Shown piece by piece: positions 1 through 35,676 of a DNA stretch of 35,676 nucleotides. Both the position numbers and the translations under genes were made by a program. The notes under the pieces were generated by a model. That model saw only the letters and a program-made list of their open reading frames with translations, made no database searches and was not told the origin of the DNA. Position 1 is the first letter of the stretch; every line of letters starts with the position of its first letter. This DNA is from a virus, in the IMG/VR virus record IMGVR_UViG_3300031237_000254, positions 1 to 35,676 of that record. One strand, 5' to 3'.

Positions 1-1203
1 ATGCCCAAACTCCCGCGCGAACTGTCTGCGATTGAGGTCTCGAGGTTGAGAGCCGAAGGTGCCCACGCTGTGGGAGGTATTCCTGGCCTGTACCTGCAGG
101 TGCTGGGCGGCTCGCGTGTCTGGGTGCTGCGCTTCATGCTCTCCAAGCGCCGCCGGCGCATGGGCCTGGGTAGCTTCCCGGCCGTGACGCTGGCCCAGGC
201 GCGTGAAAAGGCCCGTGCTGCCCACGCTCAGATTGATCAGGGCATCGACCCTATCCAGGCCAGGCAGAGCCAGGTGCGCGTGGCAGCGGCGGCCATGGCC
301 AAGGCCCTGACGTTCAAGAAGGCCTGCGAGCTGTGCATCGCTGCGCGCGAGGCGGAGTGGAAAAGTTCAAAGCACCGCCAGCAGTGGGAAAACACCCTGG
401 CCACCTACGCTGAGCCGGTGCTGGGCGAGCTCGACGTGGCCGAGATTGACCAAACGCATGTGCTCAAGGTGCTCGATCCAATATGGCGCACCAAGACAGA
501 AACCGCCACCCGCGTGCGCGGGCGCATCGAGCAGGTGCTCGACTGGGCCAAGGCCAGGGGCCACCGGCAGGGCGAGAACCCAGCCCGCTGGCGTGGCCAC
601 CTTGACCACCTGCTGCCCACGCCATCAAAAATAGCCAAGGTGACGCACCATCCTGCCGTTTCGGTGGACGATGCGCCTACGGTGGTTTCCAGAATCCAAG
701 CCGCCGAAGGAACAGGGGCCAAGGCCTTGCTGCTGCAGCTGCTGACAGCGGTGCGATCTGGAGAGGTGCGCGGCGCCACTTGGTCGGAAATTGACCTGGA
801 ACACGGCCTATGGACGATTCCCGCTGATCGCATGAAGGCCGGCCGGGAGCACCAGGTGCCGCTGTCGCGCCAGGCCGTGGCGCTGCTGCGCAGCCTGTAT
901 GTGATCGAGGGGAGTGACCTGGTTTTTCCCTCCACCAGGATGACCATGCTGTCGAATATGAGCCTCACGGCTGTGATGCGCCGCATGAAGCTGGAAGCCG
1001 TCCCGCACGGTTTCCGGTCCACCTTCCGTGATTGGGCCTCCGAGAAGACGCACTACCAAAGCGAAGTGGTGGAAATGGCGCTGGCCCACGCCATCGAAAA
1101 TAAGGTGGAAGCCGCATATCGGCGGGGCACACTGCTGACAAAGCGGGCGCCCCTGATGCAGGACTGGGCCGACTACCTGCTGCCGATGTCGGTGAAGGTC
1201 TGA
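1..1203 (+). CDS. int: Tyrosine-recombinase integrase, P4-type
   Basis: This 400-residue protein should catalyse site-specific integration and excision of the prophage. The N-terminal ~90 residues look like the arm-binding domain of P4-type integrases (YLQVLGGSRVWVLRF, MGLGSFPAVTLAQAR). A core-binding domain follows at about 100-200, then the catalytic domain. Visible catalytic residues are R252 with E255 (TAVRSGEVRG), H336-x-x-R339 (HGFR), H363 (LAHAIENKVE) and the nucleophile Y373 (AAYRRG). The length is normal for the family and all catalytic residues are present, so it looks intact. It is the first gene of the window and its promoter lies outside. Its stop is 3 bp from the stop of the convergent AlpA-like gene. 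By family habit the attachment site should lie just left of position 1, often at a tRNA gene; that is inference. Confidence 0.96.
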   Translation: MPKLPRELSAIEVSRLRAEGAHAVGGIPGLYLQVLGGSRVWVLRFMLSKRRRRMGLGSFPAVTLAQAREKARAAHAQIDQGIDPIQARQSQVRVAAAAMAKALTFKKACELCIAAREAEWKSSKHRQQWENTLATYAEPVLGELDVAEIDQTHVLKVLDPIWRTKTETATRVRGRIEQVLDWAKARGHRQGENPARWRGHLDHLLPTPSKIAKVTHHPAVSVDDAPTVVSRIQAAEGTGAKALLLQLLTAVRSGEVRGATWSEIDLEHGLWTIPADRMKAGREHQVPLSRQAVALLRSLYVIEGSDLVFPSTRMTMLSNMSLTAVMRRMKLEAVPHGFRSTFRDWASEKTHYQSEVVEMALAHAIENKVEAAYRRGTLLTKRAPLMQDWADYLLPMSVKV

Positions 1204-10994: not shown

Positions 10995-11152
10995 GCGCCA
11001 CGTTGGCAATTTGTGCCAGCACACCGCCGCCGGTCGTGCAGTCCTGCAGGCACGCCGATCTGGCCTATTCCCCCGGCGCCCTGACGCTGATGGGGCGTGT
11101 AGAAAAGACGTGCACTTTGGTGAATGGCGCGCCCACTTGGGTGCGTGGTTAG
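10976..11152 (+). pseudogene. Remnant of small cysteine protein resembling DUF1496
   Basis: Directly after the terminator stem one frame encodes FFFGCVSATLAICAS-TPPPVVQ followed by CRHADLAYSPGALTLM, then KTCTLVNGAPTWVRG. The C...YSPGA...C...W pattern resembles the short exported proteins of the DUF1496 type, and the hydrophobic stretch before it looks like the second half of a signal peptide. No ATG with a ribosome site is found; the 5' part coincides with the terminator. The likely reading is a decayed gene whose front was lost. Alternative: a real gene with an unusual start further left in the same frame. Confidence 0.35.
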
Positions 11153-11177
11153 TCAACATTTTGGGAGGATCGAACGC

Positions 11178-11801
11178 ATGGACGAATACCAAGGGCAGCC
11201 CAGTGCGGCGCTGCAAAAGCACCAGACTGAGCGCGCGTGTGCACAACTGCTGGGATTGGTCGGCGGAATTACCGCCGACGGGCAACTGCACGATCTTGAG
11301 ATCCAGTTCTTACGCACCTGGCTGGCCGAGAACAAGCAAGCGGCTGAGCATTGGCTTGGTGCCCAATTGTGCGAACAGATCGACCATGTGATGGTCGATG
11401 GCGTCATTACCGACGATGAGCGCGCACAGCTGCTGCAGATCCTGCAGGGCGCTTGCGGCGTGCAGTTCGCAGAAACCGGGGTTGTGACACCCGACACCAT
11501 CAGCAGCTTTCCGGCCGATGAGTGCGAAGTGGTTTTCCAGGGCCGCACCTTTTGCCTCACTGGCAAATTCCACTTCGGTTCACGCGGCGAGTGCGAGGCT
11601 GCCACCGCGGCCTCTGGCGGCACCTGCGCTGATGGCGTGTCGAAGAAGATCCACTACCTCGTTATCGGCTCTGCCGGCGCCACCGCTTCATGGAAGCAGG
11701 CCACCTACGGCAACAAGATCGACACGGCCATGAAGCTGCGGGAGAAGGGGCATCCCGTCTATGTTCTGACCGAAGAATCCTGGCGCGGCGCCCTGATCTG
11801 A
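11178..11801 (+). CDS. TerB-like / BRCT domain protein
   Basis: A 207-residue protein. Residues ~10-95 are helical with two acidic turn motifs, GGITADGQLHDLEIQFLRTWL and MVDGVITDDERAQLLQIL, spaced as in TerB-like domains. Residues ~115-207 form a BRCT domain of the bacterial DNA-ligase type: VVFQGRTFCLTGKFHFGSR, then ATAASGGTCADGVSKKIHYLVIG, then GNKIDTAMKLREKGHPVYVLTEESW. BRCT domains bind DNA ends, phosphates or partner proteins. The start at 11178 follows GGGAGGATCGAACGC. It stands after the terminator and before a membrane protein gene in the cargo segment. Its job is unknown; DNA-end sensing in defence or repair is inference. Confidence 0.8.
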   Translation: MDEYQGQPSAALQKHQTERACAQLLGLVGGITADGQLHDLEIQFLRTWLAENKQAAEHWLGAQLCEQIDHVMVDGVITDDERAQLLQILQGACGVQFAETGVVTPDTISSFPADECEVVFQGRTFCLTGKFHFGSRGECEAATAASGGTCADGVSKKIHYLVIGSAGATASWKQATYGNKIDTAMKLREKGHPVYVLTEESWRGALI

Positions 11802-11854
11802 GCAAACCATAGATTTGACAGAAGCTTCATGTATCGTTTTTTGAGAGGAATATC

Positions 11855-12787
11855 GTGGAAGATGTGATTGAGCAAGACGGCGTTTTCGTATTTCGCACCT
11901 CACACCGAATCGTCTACAACACCAAGCAGCCGGTTCCTATCAAAGAAGTCATCCTTGCGTTGCAAGGGCTTGATGGCCTACTTCGGGCCGTCCCGAAATT
12001 GGTGGAAGGCTTTACTGGCGTTGAAATTGAGCGCGGCGAATTTCATATCCAAAGCCTAGAATCAGGTAGCCTGATCGAGGACATCGCTGTAGCGTTCTTC
12101 TTCAAAGACAAGGCTGGCCTCGATGCCTTTGTCACCAAGATGGGAGCAAACAAAGCCGTGAAGGCAACCGTGATCACTGCAATCATTGCAGCACTTGTGG
12201 CCTACGGGCTTCACTTGGCCACAGCCAAGAATCCAGCGCCCAACATCACTGCAACCAACAACGTGATCATCAACATTGGTGCCGGTGAGGTTGGCATGAC
12301 GCCTGAGGCCTTTACGGCCGTCGTCAAATCTGCGGTGGGCGACAAAAAGGGCGTTGCAGAAAATGCGCTCAAATTCATTGGACCGGCCCGCGCAGACCCC
12401 GGATCATCCGTGACGCTCGATAGCGCTGTGCAGGGTCAGCAGGCAAGCGTTCCGATTGAGATTTCATCCGCAGCGATTGCCGAGGCACCTAAGCGTATTG
12501 AACTGGCATCGAATGAACGCGTGGAAGAGTACAAGTCCGCCAAACTCTATATCCGTGCCACCAATCTTGATAGCAAAAAAATCGGCTGGGCTGGCAAGCT
12601 TGCGAATCGTGATGATCGCCTTCCTATCGAACTGGACCCCGCTGTTTCTGAGGCCGATATTTTTGGGCGAACAGAGGTTGTTGTAGATGCCGCCTTGGTC
12701 TTCAAGGAAAAAGGCAAGTCGCGTGAGCTGAGTCCGGCACGAATTTACGTCAGGAAAGTCATCAAAGACGTGCTGGCCAGTCGGTAG
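11855..12787 (+). CDS. Membrane-anchored protein of unknown function
   Basis: A 310-residue protein starting with GTG after GAGAGGAA. Residues 1-95 form a soluble alpha/beta domain with the phrase VEIERGEFHIQSLESGSLIEDIAVAFFF; similar 'IESGSL' segments occur in uncharacterised proteins of defence islands, as far as I recall. A single membrane helix follows at about 105-122 (VTAIIAALVAYGLHLA type). The remaining ~185 residues are on the other side and are beta-rich (RVEEYKSAKLYIRATNLDSKKIGWAGKL). The codon use and base composition are less GC-rich than the tail genes. A consensus TTGACA at 11815-11820 may be its -35, but no good -10 follows. Could act as an effector or superinfection factor; not established. 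Confidence 0.72.
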   Translation: MEDVIEQDGVFVFRTSHRIVYNTKQPVPIKEVILALQGLDGLLRAVPKLVEGFTGVEIERGEFHIQSLESGSLIEDIAVAFFFKDKAGLDAFVTKMGANKAVKATVITAIIAALVAYGLHLATAKNPAPNITATNNVIINIGAGEVGMTPEAFTAVVKSAVGDKKGVAENALKFIGPARADPGSSVTLDSAVQGQQASVPIEISSAAIAEAPKRIELASNERVEEYKSAKLYIRATNLDSKKIGWAGKLANRDDRLPIELDPAVSEADIFGRTEVVVDAALVFKEKGKSRELSPARIYVRKVIKDVLASR

Positions 12788-18887: not shown

Positions 18888-20084
18888 TTATTGGCCAGCG
18901 GCCACGCGCGCGGCGAAGTCGGCGAAGTAGCGGTCGGTGATGCGCTGGCGGAAAGTGAGGTCTTCGATGGGCGGGATGGGCGTGTAGTCGTAGTCGATCA
19001 CCAGCTTTCCCTCTTTCAGCGTGGCGCTCTGGTTGATCTCTTCGTCGTACCAGGCCTGGCCGTCGAGGATGTAGCCGCCCGTCTTGAGCTCACGGAACTT
19101 GGCGTTCACGCCTTCCAGAATGTCCTTGACGATGCTGGGGTGCAGCGGCTTGTCCACGGCCCACATGTGCGCCTCGGCAATGCTGTCGGCCAGCACCTGG
19201 GCGGTGCGCACGGCCGATTCGAAAGAAAACAGCGGTTCGTCCGAGCAGGTGCGCGAGCCCCAGAAGCGGTAGCCGTCGCGGTTGACCAGCGTGGTCACGT
19301 CGGCGGCGTTGAGCAGCCCGGCGTCAGTAGCGGGGTTTTGCAGGTCCCAGTAGATGTCGCGGCTGATGCCGGTAACGCCCTGCACGCCGATGTTGGACAG
19401 CGTCTTGTGCCAGCCGGTGTCCATGTCGATCTTGGCGCGCAGGCCCAGGGCGTAGGCGGTGGCGGGCGCCTCCACGGTGGCGTTGGTCACGGTGTCCCAG
19501 CGCTGGAAGTTGGGGTGTATCACCATCAGCTCGCGCGCGCTGAAGTTGGCGCGGTAGAGCGTGGCGGCCTCCACGGTCTCGGCGCCGTCGGTGCTGGCGT
19601 AGGCGAAGGCGCGCAGCTGCTGGGCAATGGCGGCCAGCGCGGTGGCCACGGGCAGGGTGTCCAGGCCCGGCGCACCCAGGATGCGCGGCTTGACGCCCAG
19701 CTTGGCGGGTGCGGCCAGCAGCGCTTTCATGCCGGTGTACTGGCCGTTGGGCAGCACTTCGCCGATCACGTTGCTGGTGAGGTCTGCGGCCTTGTCTTCG
19801 GGCGTTTCGCCCACGCCGTCCGGCACGCGCACCACCACGATGATGGGGCGGCACTGCTGGCTGATGGCATCGAGCGATGCCGCCAGCGTGCCCGACGTGC
19901 CGGCCTTGCCCAGCGCGGCGAACACGTTGGTGACCAGCACCGGGGTGTCGAACGGGAATGCCGTGGCGTCGGCGTCGGGCGCCGTGGCCACCAAGCCGAT
20001 GATGGCTGTGGAGATGGTGCGGATGGCGCGCACGCCCTCGGTCAGTTCGAGGACGCGGACGCCGTGGTGGTATTCAGTGGCCAT
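18888..20084 (-). CDS. FI: Contractile tail sheath protein FI
   Basis: A 398-residue sheath protein, nearly the same length as P2 gpFI (396). The opening TEYHHGVRVLELTEGVRAIRTISTAIIGLVATAPDAD and the later FWGSRTCSDEPLFSFESAVRTAQVLADSIAEAHMWAVD segment are characteristic of P2-type sheaths. It contracts to drive the tube through the envelope. The start is set at 20084 (MATEYHHG) because it matches the family; an in-frame ATG at 20120 would add 12 unusual residues. A TGT-N13-ACA element 76-94 bp upstream of the start (20160-20178) suggests an Ogr-type late promoter. Confidence 0.95.
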   Translation of the reverse strand: MATEYHHGVRVLELTEGVRAIRTISTAIIGLVATAPDADATAFPFDTPVLVTNVFAALGKAGTSGTLAASLDAISQQCRPIIVVVRVPDGVGETPEDKAADLTSNVIGEVLPNGQYTGMKALLAAPAKLGVKPRILGAPGLDTLPVATALAAIAQQLRAFAYASTDGAETVEAATLYRANFSARELMVIHPNFQRWDTVTNATVEAPATAYALGLRAKIDMDTGWHKTLSNIGVQGVTGISRDIYWDLQNPATDAGLLNAADVTTLVNRDGYRFWGSRTCSDEPLFSFESAVRTAQVLADSIAEAHMWAVDKPLHPSIVKDILEGVNAKFRELKTGGYILDGQAWYDEEINQSATLKEGKLVIDYDYTPIPPIEDLTFRQRITDRYFADFAARVAAGQ

Positions 20085-20159
20085 GAGGGTGCGGTGGTGG
20101 GAGTGGATGAATCCCCCCAAGGGTGCCCGTCCTCATGCGCGCGCGCCAGCGCGGGTGGT

Positions 20160-20178
20160 TGTGGCTGGGTGATCTACA
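20160..20178 (-). promoter_or_regulatory. Candidate Ogr-type activator site upstream of FI
   Basis: Read on the minus strand the 19-mer is TGTAGATCACCCAGCCACA, i.e. TGT-N13-ACA. Its centre (20169) is 85 bp before the FI start; with activator binding around -55, as in P2 late promoters, transcription would begin near 20114, leaving a ~30-base leader. It shares T7, C12, C15 and the end C/G-ACA with the elements at 26823 and 32778. Confidence 0.5.
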
Positions 20179-20796
20179 TCAGACGGCCTGCACAGCAACC
20201 CATTGCGCTGGGTCGAAGGACTGCAGTTCATCCAGGTCCAGCGATTCCAGGGCGGCTTTCATGGCGCGCTGCCCTGCGTGGATATCGAAGCCGCGCAGCA
20301 CGATGGCCGTTTCGTGCGCCGCGTTGAGCATGCGCAGGTCGGCCAGCGACACGGGTACGTCGTTGTTGTCGGCGTCGGTCCAGAAAAAGCCCTCGGGCAG
20401 CGCCGTGAGCGCAACCACAGGCTGCAGGCGCTGGCGCGTCTGCAGGCCGCCGTCCCAGCGGCGTGCAGCGTGCTCGAACACGATGTTTGCGCGCTCCTGG
20501 CTGTCGCGCCAGGCCTCGATGCGCGCATGCGCAGCCGCCTGGGCTTTTTGGCGCCTCAGCGCCTGCGAAGCGGGGTAGGCCACTTCCCCCAGGAGCTGCG
20601 CCGCGGTTGTGTCGCAGGCGGGAATCTCTTCGGCCTGGCCTGGCGCCTGCACGGCGACGAACAGGCCGCTCTCGCGGTAGTCCGCTGGCACGGACCACAC
20701 GCGCACCAGGGCATCCACGGGCACGGGCGGCAACTCGATGGTGTCGGTCGATTCTCCGCGTGTCACCGTCAGGGTCTGGTCTTCAATTTTCAGCAT
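20179..20796 (-). CDS. DUF4376 protein, fibre-associated
   Basis: A 205-residue protein. The second half carries the DUF4376 pattern seen in fibre-assembly-type proteins of P2-like and Mu-like phages: AAHARIEAWRDSQERANIVFEHAARRWDGG, TALPEGFFWTDADNNDVPVSLADLRML, and a helical end. The first ~70 residues form a short beta-rich domain (MLKIEDQTLTVTRGESTDTIEL). It is directly downstream of the fibre gene, as are tail-fibre assembly chaperones, so a chaperone role for the fibre is likely. AAGGA precedes the ATG at 20796; open sequence upstream includes the hairpin at 20817. Confidence 0.8.
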   Translation of the reverse strand: MLKIEDQTLTVTRGESTDTIELPPVPVDALVRVWSVPADYRESGLFVAVQAPGQAEEIPACDTTAAQLLGEVAYPASQALRRQKAQAAAHARIEAWRDSQERANIVFEHAARRWDGGLQTRQRLQPVVALTALPEGFFWTDADNNDVPVSLADLRMLNAAHETAIVLRGFDIHAGQRAMKAALESLDLDELQSFDPAQWVAVQAV

Positions 20797-20816: not shown

Positions 20817-20839
20817 CCCCACGCGCTCGGCGCGTGGGG
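20817..20839. repeat. GC-rich hairpin downstream of fibre gene
   Basis: A perfect 10-bp inverted repeat CCCCACGCGC-tcg-GCGCGTGGGG begins 17 bp after the fibre stop codon. There is no U-run after it on the minus strand, so a simple intrinsic terminator is unlikely. GC-rich hairpins at this position are known to assist retrohoming in diversity-generating retroelement targets; here the role is open. It could also weaken read-through to the DUF4376 gene. Confidence 0.6.
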
Positions 20840-20856
20840 CATAAGAACATGGTGCG

Positions 20857-23394
20857 TTACACCTTTGCGAGGCGGCCCCCGATGTCCGGGTTCGCGCCCG
20901 AGGCGGAGCCGCTGACGCGCAGAGAGAACAGCCCGGCGTACGCGCCGTAGCTCCAGTCGCCACCGTGGTAGGCCACGCAATTGGGGCTCTGATAAAAAAT
21001 GTCCCCGGTACTGCCATTGCTGGCCGTTGCATCGCCTGTCGCAGGAATGAACCCGACGCTCATGTCGTGGTTTGCGCCACTGTCGGTGGAAAACGTCACG
21101 GGATAGGTGCTGCTGGCCGGGGCGGTCTGGCCGGTGGTAACCCATGTCTTGTTGCCGTTTTTGTCCCAAATCTTGAACTTGCTGCTGGCATCGGTTTCAA
21201 GGCCATCGACCATTTGCCAGACGTTGCCCCACAGGCCGACGATGCCGCGCCATGTGGCCTGTGCCACTGTGGCGCTGTCGACCGCCAGCGCTGACGATCC
21301 GGAAACGTTGCCCTGGCCGATCAGGGTCTGGCTGTTCGCGCCGCCCATCTCGATCAACGCGAGCAGCTGGATGGCCTGCAGTTGGTAGTAGTTCCAGAGC
21401 CCAAAACCTGTTACCCCAGCGGTGTTGCGTGCTGCGGCGCGCGCTTGCATGGTCGGAAAATCAATGGACACCAGCGGCGTGAGGCCTGCGGCCGACCCGA
21501 GCTTGGCGCCATCTGTCGTGCCCTGGTATTTGCCGACGTAGAACTGGCCGATTGGCGCGCCAGCATTCATGAACGCGGGATGCAAGGCGAATCCGGCCAG
21601 CGGCTGGTCGGACACCATCCAGTAGCGCTTTCCGGCATTCGTCCCGCTGGCGATGGTCCCGGTCTTCACATAGAACGCTGGCACGCGCACCATGGCCTGG
21701 CCGTCGATGGTCACACCGGTGATGCCGCCATAGGTAGCGTGGGCGTTGAAAACCGCGGCGTCTGTAACCTTGTCGGTGCCGTTTTCGTCCACCCGCTTCC
21801 AGGTGCCACTGCCGCCGCCGGTGGCGGCCAGCACGATGCCGATCACGTTGGCGAACTGCAGCTTCGTGGTCACCCTGATCTCGGTTGACCATTCGGACCA
21901 GCCCTTGGCCGCGCCCTGGTGGCGCACGCGCAGGTAATAGACCGACTGGCCGGCCAGCAATTTGCCAGCAGGCACGATAACCGTCAGTTTGTTGGCGGCG
22001 TCGGTGCCACTGTCCCACACCGGCGCGGTGTAGTTGCCTGCTGCGGTGCGGATTTGCCACTGGCTGGCAGAGTGGGTGTCTGCGCCGCCGACCACGGTGA
22101 AAGCGCTCGATGACAGCGTGGGCTGCTCTGGCACATCGACTGCGTTGTCGGCCGGCCCGGTGAGCGCAGGCGCCGCGACGTAGACGAATGATGCGGCGGT
22201 CGCAAAGCTGGTCACTGCGGACCAATCGGACCACAGACCCGCCATATCCTTGACGCGGCCGCGCAGATAGTAGGTGGTGCCTGCAACCAGCGTTGCGGCC
22301 GGCACGGTGTAGCTCAGCCCGGCGGGCTTTTCGCCCGAGTCGTGCAAGACGTTGGCGAACGCGGCGGCCGTTGCCAGCTGGAACTGGACGCCCGCCTGTG
22401 CCACACCGGTCGGGCTGCTGTAGCTGGCCAGCGCCAGGGTGGGGCGCTCCATCAGGCCGGCGGCAGCGTTGACTGGCGCGCTGATGGCGGGCGTTGCTGG
22501 GCGTTGTTCCGGATTCAAGTAGCCCCCGAGACCGGTGTTTTGCCCCAGTGCAACGATGTGCCGGATATCGACCGGTTCCCCTGCCACTTCAACGCGCAAA
22601 TAACCATCGCCGCGCATTGGCAATGCGAATTCATAGTCGGCCATGCCGGCGGGAATGTCACCGCCCTGGCGGCGGTGGGACCAGCCGCATTCCTTCCACG
22701 TTGGCTGGTAGGCGTCGCGGTAGTAAAGCCGGGTATCGGCGGCGTTCAGGCTGCGGCGAATGACCACGGCGCCGCCCTCGATGTCGGTTCCGATGCTGAT
22801 CTGGCGCGATAGCCACATGTCGCCCTGGCGTCCATTGGCGCGGCCCGGACTGGCAATGGTCAGGCTGGAGCGCGACAGGCTGGCATCGCCGGACCAGTTG
22901 CGCGCCAGGTTGGCGGCCAGGCGCAGGCGGTTGACAGACAGCACCGCAGCGACCAGCACCATTTCGGCACCGTTGGCGTCGGCCAGGATGTAGTGCTCTC
23001 CCGCGCGCACCGATGCGGTGCTGGCGATATCGATGGAGTCATCCCCGCCGACGCCGCTGACGATGGCAACCGGCACGAAATCGACAAGGGTGTAGCCGGC
23101 GGTGAATAGCTCGAACGACACAGCGTTGCCGCGATACAGCCAGTCAAGGCCTACAGCGGTTTGCACCGCAACGGAACTGGTGGCCTCGATGCCGCTGACG
23201 CGCTCGCCCATGTCGTCGAGCTCCTCGGTCAGGCGGGCGTCTACGCCCTTGATCGCCGCGTCAAGAAAGGCGTCGTTGTCGAGCAGCGTCTGGTGGGTCG
23301 GGTTCCAGGTGTCCGGGTGTGCGACCGAGTTGACGGTAAGGGCCGGCAGCGTGGTGGTGAATGCCGGGTTCGCGGATGGCGTGAGTTGGGACAT
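20857..23394 (-). CDS. Tail fibre / receptor-binding protein with C-type-lectin-like end
   Basis: An 845-residue distal tail protein. The N-terminus (~1-110) has attachment and coiled segments (AFLDAAIKGVDARLTEELDDMGERVSGIEA). The middle holds two fibronectin-like repeats (about 300-400 and 415-505; AGTTYYLRGRVKDMAGLWSDWS and AGQSVYYLRVRHQGAAKGWSEWS). The last ~320 residues form a formylglycine-enzyme/C-type-lectin-type domain: VRVPAFYVKTGT, WRGIVGLWGNVWQMVDGL, then NCVAYHGGDWSYGAYAGLF and the end IGGRLAKV. This is the fold of diversity-generating retroelement targets such as phage Mtd and TvpA-type proteins. It should determine host receptor choice. It occupies the H position of P2, with an unrelated body. 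No reverse transcriptase is seen in the window. Confidence 0.85.
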   Translation of the reverse strand: MSQLTPSANPAFTTTLPALTVNSVAHPDTWNPTHQTLLDNDAFLDAAIKGVDARLTEELDDMGERVSGIEATSSVAVQTAVGLDWLYRGNAVSFELFTAGYTLVDFVPVAIVSGVGGDDSIDIASTASVRAGEHYILADANGAEMVLVAAVLSVNRLRLAANLARNWSGDASLSRSSLTIASPGRANGRQGDMWLSRQISIGTDIEGGAVVIRRSLNAADTRLYYRDAYQPTWKECGWSHRRQGGDIPAGMADYEFALPMRGDGYLRVEVAGEPVDIRHIVALGQNTGLGGYLNPEQRPATPAISAPVNAAAGLMERPTLALASYSSPTGVAQAGVQFQLATAAAFANVLHDSGEKPAGLSYTVPAATLVAGTTYYLRGRVKDMAGLWSDWSAVTSFATAASFVYVAAPALTGPADNAVDVPEQPTLSSSAFTVVGGADTHSASQWQIRTAAGNYTAPVWDSGTDAANKLTVIVPAGKLLAGQSVYYLRVRHQGAAKGWSEWSTEIRVTTKLQFANVIGIVLAATGGGSGTWKRVDENGTDKVTDAAVFNAHATYGGITGVTIDGQAMVRVPAFYVKTGTIASGTNAGKRYWMVSDQPLAGFALHPAFMNAGAPIGQFYVGKYQGTTDGAKLGSAAGLTPLVSIDFPTMQARAAARNTAGVTGFGLWNYYQLQAIQLLALIEMGGANSQTLIGQGNVSGSSALAVDSATVAQATWRGIVGLWGNVWQMVDGLETDASSKFKIWDKNGNKTWVTTGQTAPASSTYPVTFSTDSGANHDMSVGFIPATGDATASNGSTGDIFYQSPNCVAYHGGDWSYGAYAGLFSLRVSGSASGANPDIGGRLAKV
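20860..20970 (-). other. Variable-region-like 3' end of fibre gene
   Basis: The last ~37 codons match the layout of retroelement-diversified variable regions: GGDW-S-Y-G-A-Y-AG-F--L, a polar run, and IG-RLA. At the places where family templates carry AAC, the codons here are GAC, AGC, TAC, TAC, CGC, GTC and AGC, all NNC, as expected if A's of AAC had been replaced. High GC bias alone also favours C in third position, so this is suggestive only. Confidence 0.45.
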
Positions 23395-32812: not shown

Positions 32813-34648
32813 ATGGGGTTCCTCGCGCGCGCGTGCGCCCACAAACTCGCCGGCATGACCACCGCTGCGCTTGCAAAAAACCTGCCTTTTTCGACCGTGC
32901 CCGGTGAAGGAATAGCCGCGGACAAGCGCCGTGCGGCGCGGCACCTGTACTGGCAGGGGTGGCGCATTTCTTCCATTGCGGAGTACATCGAGGAGCCACG
33001 GTCCACAGTGCAGGGCTGGAAGGATGCCGAGGAGTGGGACAAGGCGCAGCCGGCCCAGCGCGTGGAGGCAGCGCTCGAAACGCGCCTGGTGCAGCTGGTG
33101 ATGAAGGATGGCAAGACCGGCGGCGAATTCAAGGAAATCGACCTGTTGGGCCGCCAGATTGAGCGCCTAGCGCGCGTGCAGAAGTACGGAGAGACCGGCA
33201 AGGAAGCCGACCTGAACCCGGCCATCGAGCGGCGCAACGACAGGCCCAAAAAGAAGCCGTCACGCAATCACTTCGATGAAGAGATGCACGAGAAGCTGCT
33301 CGATGTGTTCCGCGATTCGCTGTTCGACTACCAGAAGGCCTGGTATCGCAACAGCCAGGAACGCACGCGGATGATTCTCAAGTCCCGCCAGATCGGCGCC
33401 ACCTGGTACTTCGCCCGCGAGGCCCTGGCCGACGCCATCGCCACGGGGCGCAACCAGATTTTCCTGTCCGCGTCCAAGGCCCAGGCGCACATCTTCAAGC
33501 AGTACATCATCCAGTTCGCCAGCGAGGCCTGCGGCATCGAGCTGGCGGGCGATCCCATCGTGCTGAGCAATGGGGCGCACATCTACTTTTTGGGCACGAA
33601 CGCGCGCACGGCCCAGGGCTACCACGGCAACTTCTATTTCGACGAGTTCTTCTGGACGCACAAGTTCGAGGAACTGAACAAGGTGGCCAGCGGCATGGCC
33701 ATGCACAAGCAGTGGCGCAAGACCTACTTCAGCACGCCCAGCAGCCTGCAGCACCAGGCCTACGCGCTGTGGAGCGGGGACCGCTTCAACAAGCGGCGCC
33801 CGAAGGCCGAGCGCATTGCGCTGGATCTGTCGCACGACCGCCTGGCCGGTGGCTTTACGGGCGAGGACAAGATCTGGCGCCAGATCGTCAACATCATCGA
33901 CGCGCAGCGCGGCGGCTGCGATCTGTTCGACATCGATGAGCTGCGCACGGAGTACAGCCCGGACGAGTTCGAGAACCTGCTGATGTGCGGGTTCATCGAC
34001 GACACCTACAGCGTGTTTCCGCTCTCACAGCTGCAGTCCTGCATGGTGGACAGCTGGGAGGCCTGGGACGATGTGAAGCCGTTCATGACCCGCCCCTACG
34101 GCTACCGGCCGGTGTGGGTGGGCTACGACCCGGCGCTGTCGGGCGACTCGGCCGGCTGCGTGGTGCTGGCACCGCCCACCACGCCCGGCGGCAAGTTCCG
34201 CGTGCTGCATCACCGGCAGTTCAAGGGGATGGATTTCGAGGCCCAGGCGGAGGCGATCAAGACGATCACGGAACAGTACAACGTGGCGTACATCGGCATC
34301 GACACCACGGGCATGGGGCAGGGCGTGTACCAGCTGGTCAAGGGCTTCTTTCCGGCCACCACGGCGTTCAACTATTCGCCCGAGGTGAAGACGCGCCTGG
34401 TACTCAAGGCGCAGAACGTGATCAGCAAGGGCCGGCTGGAGTTCGACGCCGGCGCGGTGGATCTGGCTCAGTCCTTCATGGCCATCAAAAAAACGATGAC
34501 GGCCAGCGGGCGCCACGCCACCTATGACGCCGGGCGCAGCAGCGAAACAGGCCACGCGGATCTGGCGTGGGCCTGCATGCACGCGCTGGCCAATGAGCCC
34601 TTGGAAGGCGCCAGCGTGGCGAATCAATCAATTGTGGAGATGTCCTGA
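32813..34648 (+). CDS. P: Terminase large subunit P (ATPase)
   Basis: The ATPase that packages DNA into the head; 611 residues from ATG 32813 (P2 gpP about 590). Near residue 40 is an HTH (RRAARHLYWQGWRISSIAEYIEEPRSTVQGWK). The ATPase has SRQIGATW at 191-198 (Walker-A equivalent of this family) and NFYFDEFFW at 273-281 (Walker B). The nuclease-like domain has VGYDPALSGDSAG at 436-448 and later IGIDTTGMG. The start at 32813 was chosen because GGAAAGG precedes it; ATG 32855 (MTTAALAK, 597 residues) lacks a ribosome site but is closer to P2 in length. It shares one base with gpQ (TGATG). Confidence 0.95.
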   Translation: MGFLARACAHKLAGMTTAALAKNLPFSTVPGEGIAADKRRAARHLYWQGWRISSIAEYIEEPRSTVQGWKDAEEWDKAQPAQRVEAALETRLVQLVMKDGKTGGEFKEIDLLGRQIERLARVQKYGETGKEADLNPAIERRNDRPKKKPSRNHFDEEMHEKLLDVFRDSLFDYQKAWYRNSQERTRMILKSRQIGATWYFAREALADAIATGRNQIFLSASKAQAHIFKQYIIQFASEACGIELAGDPIVLSNGAHIYFLGTNARTAQGYHGNFYFDEFFWTHKFEELNKVASGMAMHKQWRKTYFSTPSSLQHQAYALWSGDRFNKRRPKAERIALDLSHDRLAGGFTGEDKIWRQIVNIIDAQRGGCDLFDIDELRTEYSPDEFENLLMCGFIDDTYSVFPLSQLQSCMVDSWEAWDDVKPFMTRPYGYRPVWVGYDPALSGDSAGCVVLAPPTTPGGKFRVLHHRQFKGMDFEAQAEAIKTITEQYNVAYIGIDTTGMGQGVYQLVKGFFPATTAFNYSPEVKTRLVLKAQNVISKGRLEFDAGAVDLAQSFMAIKKTMTASGRHATYDAGRSSETGHADLAWACMHALANEPLEGASVANQSIVEMS

Positions 34649-35676
34649 TGGAACCGAACACTACCGCCCTGGCTGACGCCGGGGCCCCCGACAGCGACCG
34701 CATGGAGGCCTTCACCTTCGGAGATCCGGTCCCGGTGATGGATGGCCGCGAAATGATGGACTACATCGAGACCTGGCTGAACGGCAAGTGGTACGAGCCG
34801 CCCATCAGCTGGGAAGGCCTGGCGCGGTCGTTCCGCGCCAGCACGCACCACAGCTCGGCCCTGTACTTCAAGCGCAACGTGCTGGCCAGCACCTTCATCC
34901 CGCACAAGCTGCTGGACCGCTCCACGTTCAGCCGCTGGGCGCTGGACTTTCTGACGTTCGGCAATGCCTACCTGGAGCGCCGGCCAAACATGCTGGGTGC
35001 CAATCTTGCGCTGGACCACAGCCTGGCCAAGTACGTGCGCCGGGGGGAGGATCTGGACAACTACTTCTACGTGCATGGGTTCAAGACCGAGCACGAATTC
35101 AAGAAGGGCAGCGTGTTCCACCTGATGGAGGCCGACATCAACCAGGAGGTGTATGGCTTGCCCGAGTACCTGGCCACGCTGCAGGCCGCCTGGCTGAACG
35201 AATCGGCCACCCTGTTCCGGCGCAAGTACTTCAACAACGGGAGCCACGCCGGTTTCATCATGTACATCACCGACCCGGCACAGCAGCAGGGCGACGTGGA
35301 CGCGATCCGCGAGGCCCTCAAAAGCAGCAAGGGGCCGGGCAACTTCCGCAACCTGTTTATGTACAGCCCAAACGGGAAGAAGGACGGCATCCAGATCATC
35401 CCCGTGGGCGAGGTCACGGCCAAGGATGACTTCATTAACATCAAGAACGTGAGCCGCGACGATGTGTTGGCCGCCCATCGAATCCCGCCGCAGCTGATGG
35501 GCATCGTGCCCAGCAACACCGGCGGCTTCGGTGCCATCCTGCCCGCCGCCCAGGTGTTCGCCCGCAACGAGATCGAACCGCTGCAGGCCCGCTTCAGGGA
35601 GCTCAACGACTGGCTGGGCCAGGAGGTGGTGAGGTTTGAGAAATATGCCGTGGAAGATGTTCCCTTGAAAGAATAA
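34648..35676 (+). CDS. Q: Portal protein Q
   Basis: A 342-residue portal (P2 gpQ 344), complete in the window. Features: AFTFGDPVPVMDGREMMDYIETWLNGKWYEPPISWEGLA, HHSSALYFKRNVLASTFIPHKLL, LDFLTFGNAYLERRPN, EVYGLPEYLATLQAAWLNESATLFRRKYFNNGSHAGFIMYITD and RVPPQLMGIVP-type AAHRIPPQLMGIVPSNTGGFGAI. It forms the dodecameric vertex for DNA entry and exit. In P2 cos lies just beyond this gene, so the phage cos site should lie right of 35676. Confidence 0.96.
   Translation: MEPNTTALADAGAPDSDRMEAFTFGDPVPVMDGREMMDYIETWLNGKWYEPPISWEGLARSFRASTHHSSALYFKRNVLASTFIPHKLLDRSTFSRWALDFLTFGNAYLERRPNMLGANLALDHSLAKYVRRGEDLDNYFYVHGFKTEHEFKKGSVFHLMEADINQEVYGLPEYLATLQAAWLNESATLFRRKYFNNGSHAGFIMYITDPAQQQGDVDAIREALKSSKGPGNFRNLFMYSPNGKKDGIQIIPVGEVTAKDDFINIKNVSRDDVLAAHRIPPQLMGIVPSNTGGFGAILPAAQVFARNEIEPLQARFRELNDWLGQEVVRFEKYAVEDVPLKE

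Follow-up and report, generated by a model that had tools for sequence, protein, structure and literature searches.

The diversity-generating retroelement (DGR) of Bordetella phage BPP-1 comprises mtd, avd, a template repeat (TR) and the reverse transcriptase (RT) gene brt, and its variable repeat (VR) lies at the 3' end of a gene encoding a lectin-fold fibre tip. In this phage, the IMH and the hairpin alone can turn a gene on a second replicon into a target, provided that avd, RT and TR are supplied from a donor plasmid (PMC3240598). Partial DGRs of Nanoarchaeota are target-only, and it was left open whether they are fossils or are diversified remotely (PMC4372165). In gut prophages, second VRs have been found far from the RT cassette (PMC12629997). 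DGR surveys begin from the reverse transcriptase, so RT-less targets are invisible to them, and one large survey itself states that remote targets would be missed (PMC8144416).

The target analysed here is carried by a prophage, IMG/VR virus record IMGVR_UViG_3300031237_000254, whose full 35,676 bases we call the window. Like BPP-1, it has a lectin-fold fibre tip, a VR at the 3' end of the gene, an IMH-like end and a GC-rich hairpin shortly past the stop codon. Unlike the BPP-1 DGR, the record is without avd, TR and RT. The gene order is P2-like, as in Burkholderia phage FLC5 (Table 1). As the record starts exactly with the integrase ATG and ends with the portal stop codon, the prophage has been trimmed at gene borders. 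Between a repressor-like gene and the tail operon lies an apparent accessory region (11124-12787), with genes for a BRCT-domain protein (11124-11801) and for a protein of 310 aa that has no Pfam match.

Table 1. Features of the window that bear on the fibre and its variable repeat.
Feature	Position	Strand	Basis or remark
Integrase	1..1203	+	At record edge
Tail sheath FI	18888..20084	-	96% identical to backbone sibling L256/L130
Gap from stop of tfa to sheath ATG	20085..20178	-	Site of avd-TR-RT in DGR-bearing relatives
Tail fibre assembly gene (tfa, DUF4376)	20179..20796	-	PF14301 E=2.8e-14; phrog_1141
GC-rich hairpin/cruciform element, 10-bp stem, 3-nt loop CGA	20817..20839	-	17 nt after fibre stop
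Tail fibre, 845 aa	20857..23394	-	ORF; phrog_5302 tail protein E=1e-33
Fibre C-terminal ~282 aa, predicted C-type-lectin/FGE-like DGR variable-protein domain	20860-21705	-	AlphaFold2 pLDDT 96.6; TaqVP 5vf4 Z=27.1
Variable repeat (VR), last ~108 coding nt of fibre	20860..20967	-	A-site-only differences from L040; codon alignment with relatives' TRs
Conserved VR 3' end ATCGGGGGCCGCCTCGCAAAGGTG, IMH-like	20860..20883	-	VR/TR alignments; IMH label by analogy with BPP-1 (PMC3240598)
Portal Q	34648..35676	+	Stop is the last base of the record; gene order matches phage FLC5

The nearest fibre to that of the window belongs to locus L040 (83% amino acid identity). Over the last 105 coding bases, 17 of the 25 template-A sites distinguish the two genes, and the other 80 positions are identical (Fisher p=6.6e-14). 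Relative to L040, variation in the window VR is thus confined to template adenines. The fibre DNA flanking the VR differs at 19.8% of sites. Not one of the 35 third codon positions in the VR has changed, against 103 of 247 in the flank (p=5.6e-8), and 12 of the 35 residues in the VR are different. Together, the A-site-only differences and the unchanged third positions show that both fibre ends were recently overwritten from the same template, so that both VRs are copies of one TR that is seen in neither sequence. By this sequence comparison, the C-terminus of the window fibre is an authentic DGR variable region.

The L040 contig stops shortly past its assembly gene, which is 76% identical to the tfa of the window. 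Its final 147 bases encode the N-terminus of an Avd, up to 77% identical to the Avds of relatives with a DGR in cis. Since this N-terminus directly follows tfa, a canonical cassette starts there in L040, and from its Avd we infer that L040 also has a TR and an RT. Had L040 been cassette-less as well, this would have favoured supply in trans strongly; the Avd encoded at the end of its contig rules this reading out.

The window VR can be aligned codon by codon with the TRs of relatives. All its template-A codons are NNC, each AAC of the templates corresponding to an NNC. The AAC-derived codons read GAC, TAC, TAC, CGC, AGC, GGC, GGC, AAC and GAC, and two further A-changes convert TAT to TCT and ACG to CCG. 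With N at the variable sites, the skeleton of the VR is GGTGGCNNCTGGNGCNNCGGCGCGNNCGCCGGGCTGTTCTNTCTGNNCGTCNNCNNCTCCGCC. The VR ends in GCAAAGGTG, at the place where the TRs of relatives end in GCAAACGAY. In analogy to BPP-1, this 3' end, which is different from the IMH* of the TR, would function as an IMH. The hairpin that follows is perfect over its 10-bp stem; of 200 shuffled sequences, one reaches an equally good fold, and 0.5% of shuffles give a strict DGR-type hairpin. Compared with L040 it carries one compensatory pair (A-T to G-C), and of 48 distinct fibres that have a TR in cis, 45 keep a similar element. Its 3-nt CGA loop differs from the 4-nt GRNA loop of phage DGRs (PMC3240598). 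Within the fibre family, the loop is often a 3-nt CGA or CAA with flanking GC pairs, and other members have a GRNA loop. Judged from the sequence, all cis-signals of the window (VR, IMH-like end and hairpin) are intact.

For the C-terminal domain of the fibre, an AlphaFold2 model was computed from an alignment of 67 related domains (mean pLDDT 96.6). Among solved structures, the model comes closest to the Thermus aquaticus DGR variable protein TaqVP (5vf4; Z 27.1 over 242 residues, 2.3 A), followed by Treponema TvpA (Z 15.6) and Bordetella Mtd (Z ~14), with formylglycine-generating enzymes (FGEs) ranking close behind Mtd. The fibre C-terminus is therefore predicted to adopt the C-type-lectin variable-protein fold of DGR targets. 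TaqVP differs from the fibre tip in being only 26% identical and in not being a phage fibre fused to Ig-like repeats.

These results bear out most of what the original prediction had said of the fibre. The motifs that it quoted for a DGR-type variable region at the end of the 845-residue protein are all present, the lectin/formylglycine-enzyme fold that it assigned agrees with TaqVP as the top match and FGEs close by, and the GC-rich hairpin that it placed 17 bp after the stop is the perfect stem at 20817-20839. Its list of seven template codons holds in that all are NNC, but two of them (the first AGC and GTC) correspond to non-AAC codons in the TRs of relatives.

Scans of IMG/VR and GTDB genomes yielded more than 100 related loci. 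In 60 of 107, a cis TR follows at most about 2.2 kb downstream, differing from the VR, per 70 nt, at 0-2 non-A and 3-11 A positions of the template. This frequent TR in cis, with differences mainly at A, marks the window's fibre family as a genuine DGR target family. Dozens of pairs of cis-DGR relatives repeat the A-site-only pattern, and in several of them 9-11 of the 25 A sites differ even though the flanks are identical or almost so. Uniform, synonymous-type variation and no TR in any genome carrying the fibre had been named as the outcome that would speak against the prediction; instead, variation was found only at template-A sites, and TRs in dozens of relatives. The gene order in L050/G015 is fibre, tfa, avd, TR, RT and sheath FI, and the TR sits between tfa and FI in the P2-like DGR relatives L050, L051 and L055.

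Other relatives have no cassette. Behind the fibres of L010, L052, L067, L076, L083, L092 and L114 the sheath gene comes next, and both TR and hairpin are absent; orphaning of fibres is thus recurrent. The pair L067/L081, which has neither RT nor TR, breaks the A-site pattern (3/25 A versus 11/80 non-A sites). L058/L059 represents a second cassette-less P2-like phage, which has retained the hairpin and has no RT in its 40-kb record. Its VR is freshly templated (third positions 0/35 versus 76/247, relative to L049). Near-identical TR-less phages from different records carry identical VRs (L058/L059, L052-54 and L060/L062). In a tree of the fibre domain, TR-bearing and cassette-less members are mixed within the window's clade, so this tree gives neither a date for the loss nor the direction and number of losses.

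The scans also revealed stand-alone proteins of ~330-390 aa with the same lectin domain and a VR (L021 9659-10837, L024, L028, L031, L032, L034 and L036). Each shares a contig with a DGR 27-65 kb away, from whose TR it departs at no more than one non-A site. The protein in L021 (Gulbenkiania) comes after MuA/MuB-like genes. These proteins are probably a second type of DGR target, distinct from the fibre and encoded close to the early or integrase region. In three genomes, tandem RVT_1 genes lie about 1.7 kb apart (G011:C7:11553-13874, G013:C43:199107-201430 and G012:C95:6914-9235), perhaps as dual-RT DGRs.

In the window itself, no RVT_1 match was found in six frames of the 35.7-kb record, no bAvd by a search that does find it in the record of L050, and no TR or near-repeat of the fibre end on either strand. 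This agrees with the original prediction, and none of the components of a complete DGR (RT, TR and Avd) is present within the record. No remnant of avd, TR or RT was seen in the tfa-sheath gap, and no second target protein in the window. The VR skeleton pattern occurs elsewhere in IMG/VR only in the VR of L040 itself and in no TR; with 2 mismatches allowed, it was absent from 401 genomes in a single beta-proteobacterial family and from 6 in a second one. The TRs of all fetched relatives were rejected as direct template of the window, the best having 4 non-A mismatches in 70 nt. Annotated phage records gave no DNA match to the window and three distant protein matches.

The sheath gene adjoins the tfa of the window across a gap of less than 100 bp. 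The closest backbone sibling found is L256/L130, in which the tail tube is 93% and the lysis and tail genes are 91-94% identical, and many modules match at 87-89% in DNA. This similarity breaks off at the start codon of the sheath gene and is restored at ~24.7 kb, near which the far junction of a fibre-module exchange can be placed only roughly. As L256/L130 carries an unrelated module with ORFs of 279, 254 and 163 aa in this interval, the fibre module of the window looks exchanged. No match to RT or Avd was found within the fetched stretch of L256/L130. In the sheath, 64 of 399 third positions (16%) differ between the window and L130; the 95% bound for the 0/35 third positions of the VR is 8.2%, half of this. 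The last templating hence looks younger than the split between the window and L130. Deletion of the cassette in situ is as compatible with these data as module exchange, and the relative timing fits both.

Taken together, we propose, as a moderately probable explanation, that the fibre module was recently separated from its cassette by exchange or deletion and that its variant is now frozen. Until recently, mutagenic retrohoming would have rewritten the fibre C-terminus from a TR, the avd-TR-RT cassette of which lies directly after tfa in sibling phages such as L040. Fibre and tfa may then have moved by module exchange onto a backbone without a DGR in that interval, or the cassette may have been deleted. 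A crossover near the tfa-sheath gap would carry the target in and leave the cassette behind. Because fibre and tfa are now apart from the cassette, the current variant is probably frozen; because every cis-signal is intact, a matching DGR that enters the cell could rediversify it. However, the perfect hairpin and the lack of any non-A mutation relative to L040 are also compatible with a target that is still served, the record is trimmed, and the exchange or deletion itself is seen in no sequence. The original prediction offered either supply in trans or loss followed by freezing. We favour the second branch, with module exchange as a refinement, and its core reading of a DGR variable region without machinery is supported by the comparison with relatives.

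If the fibre were instead a live target, a DGR in another prophage or at another locus of the host would act on it in trans. We regard this as somewhat unlikely. The intact cis-signals, perfect hairpin and fresh VR of the window would fit it, as would the fresh VR and hairpin of cassette-less L058/L059. In BPP-1, the machinery need not share a replicon with its target: with avd, RT and TR on a donor plasmid, a gene on a different replicon was retargeted (PMC3240598). On seven contigs of relatives (L011/L021, L009/L028, L015/L024, L022/L031, L016/L032, L012/L034 and L029/L036), a second target 27-65 kb from the DGR shows at most one non-A mismatch to its TR, alongside 5-12 A-site changes. However, these targets may share a prophage with their DGR and thus need not be cross-element cases, no TR with the window skeleton was found in IMG/VR or in the 401 and 6 genomes, and near-identical cassette-less phages show no VR variation. 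It is a further, unlikely possibility that phages with a machinery-less DGR target persist as cheaters, which keep their cis-signals intact and rely on the DGRs of unrelated prophages in the same cell to diversify their fibres in trans.

Alternatively, the same prophage could hold a DGR in a part that trimming removed, such as DNA past the portal gene. In favour of this, the cuts of the record fall on gene borders, ~1.9 kb follow Q in phage FLC5, and a retron-type RT is located just after Q in the P2-like phage KS5 (PMC3091744). The position of the TR between tfa and FI in L050, L051 and L055, and of avd likewise after tfa in L040, argues against this, and we consider it quite improbable. Ordinary diversifying selection on a lectin-like tip, with a DGR likeness only in the fold, could draw on the fact that this fold is common to non-DGR FGE-like proteins. 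Here, however, the window and L040 disagree in 12 of 35 residues without a single third-position change, and all differences fall on template-A sites. Such selection is exceedingly improbable, and the third-position test rules out chance resemblance along with it.

The case of the window suggests that a fibre module can become parted from the element that diversifies it. A phage may then keep a past variant without the means for more, unless another DGR of the cell serves it. Among known DGR phages, the closest counterparts are the P2-like L048, L050, L051 and L055 (IMG/VR), which have a full-length homologous fibre with the same type of VR skeleton; L050, L051 and L055 also share the P2-like order, with a sheath ~62% identical. 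In all four, the TR lies between tfa and sheath, where the window has a gap of <100 bp, and avd and RT, shown in L050 and L048, are absent from the window record. The distal VRs of gut prophages differ from that of the window in sharing a phage genome with their RT (PMC12629997). The partial DGRs of Nanoarchaeota resemble it in having a target gene, VR and cis-elements without an RT (PMC4372165). Unlike them, the window has an avd-bearing sibling and a backbone sibling, so that its orphaning can be reconstructed and relatively dated. Within the open-licence literature, what is new here is a phage case in which two such siblings show what parted from what, together with a sequence test that separates fresh from decayed orphans. 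This simple test, which combines third codon positions, template-A sites and the hairpin, sorts freshly templated orphans (the window and L058/L059) from decayed ones (L067, L081 and others).
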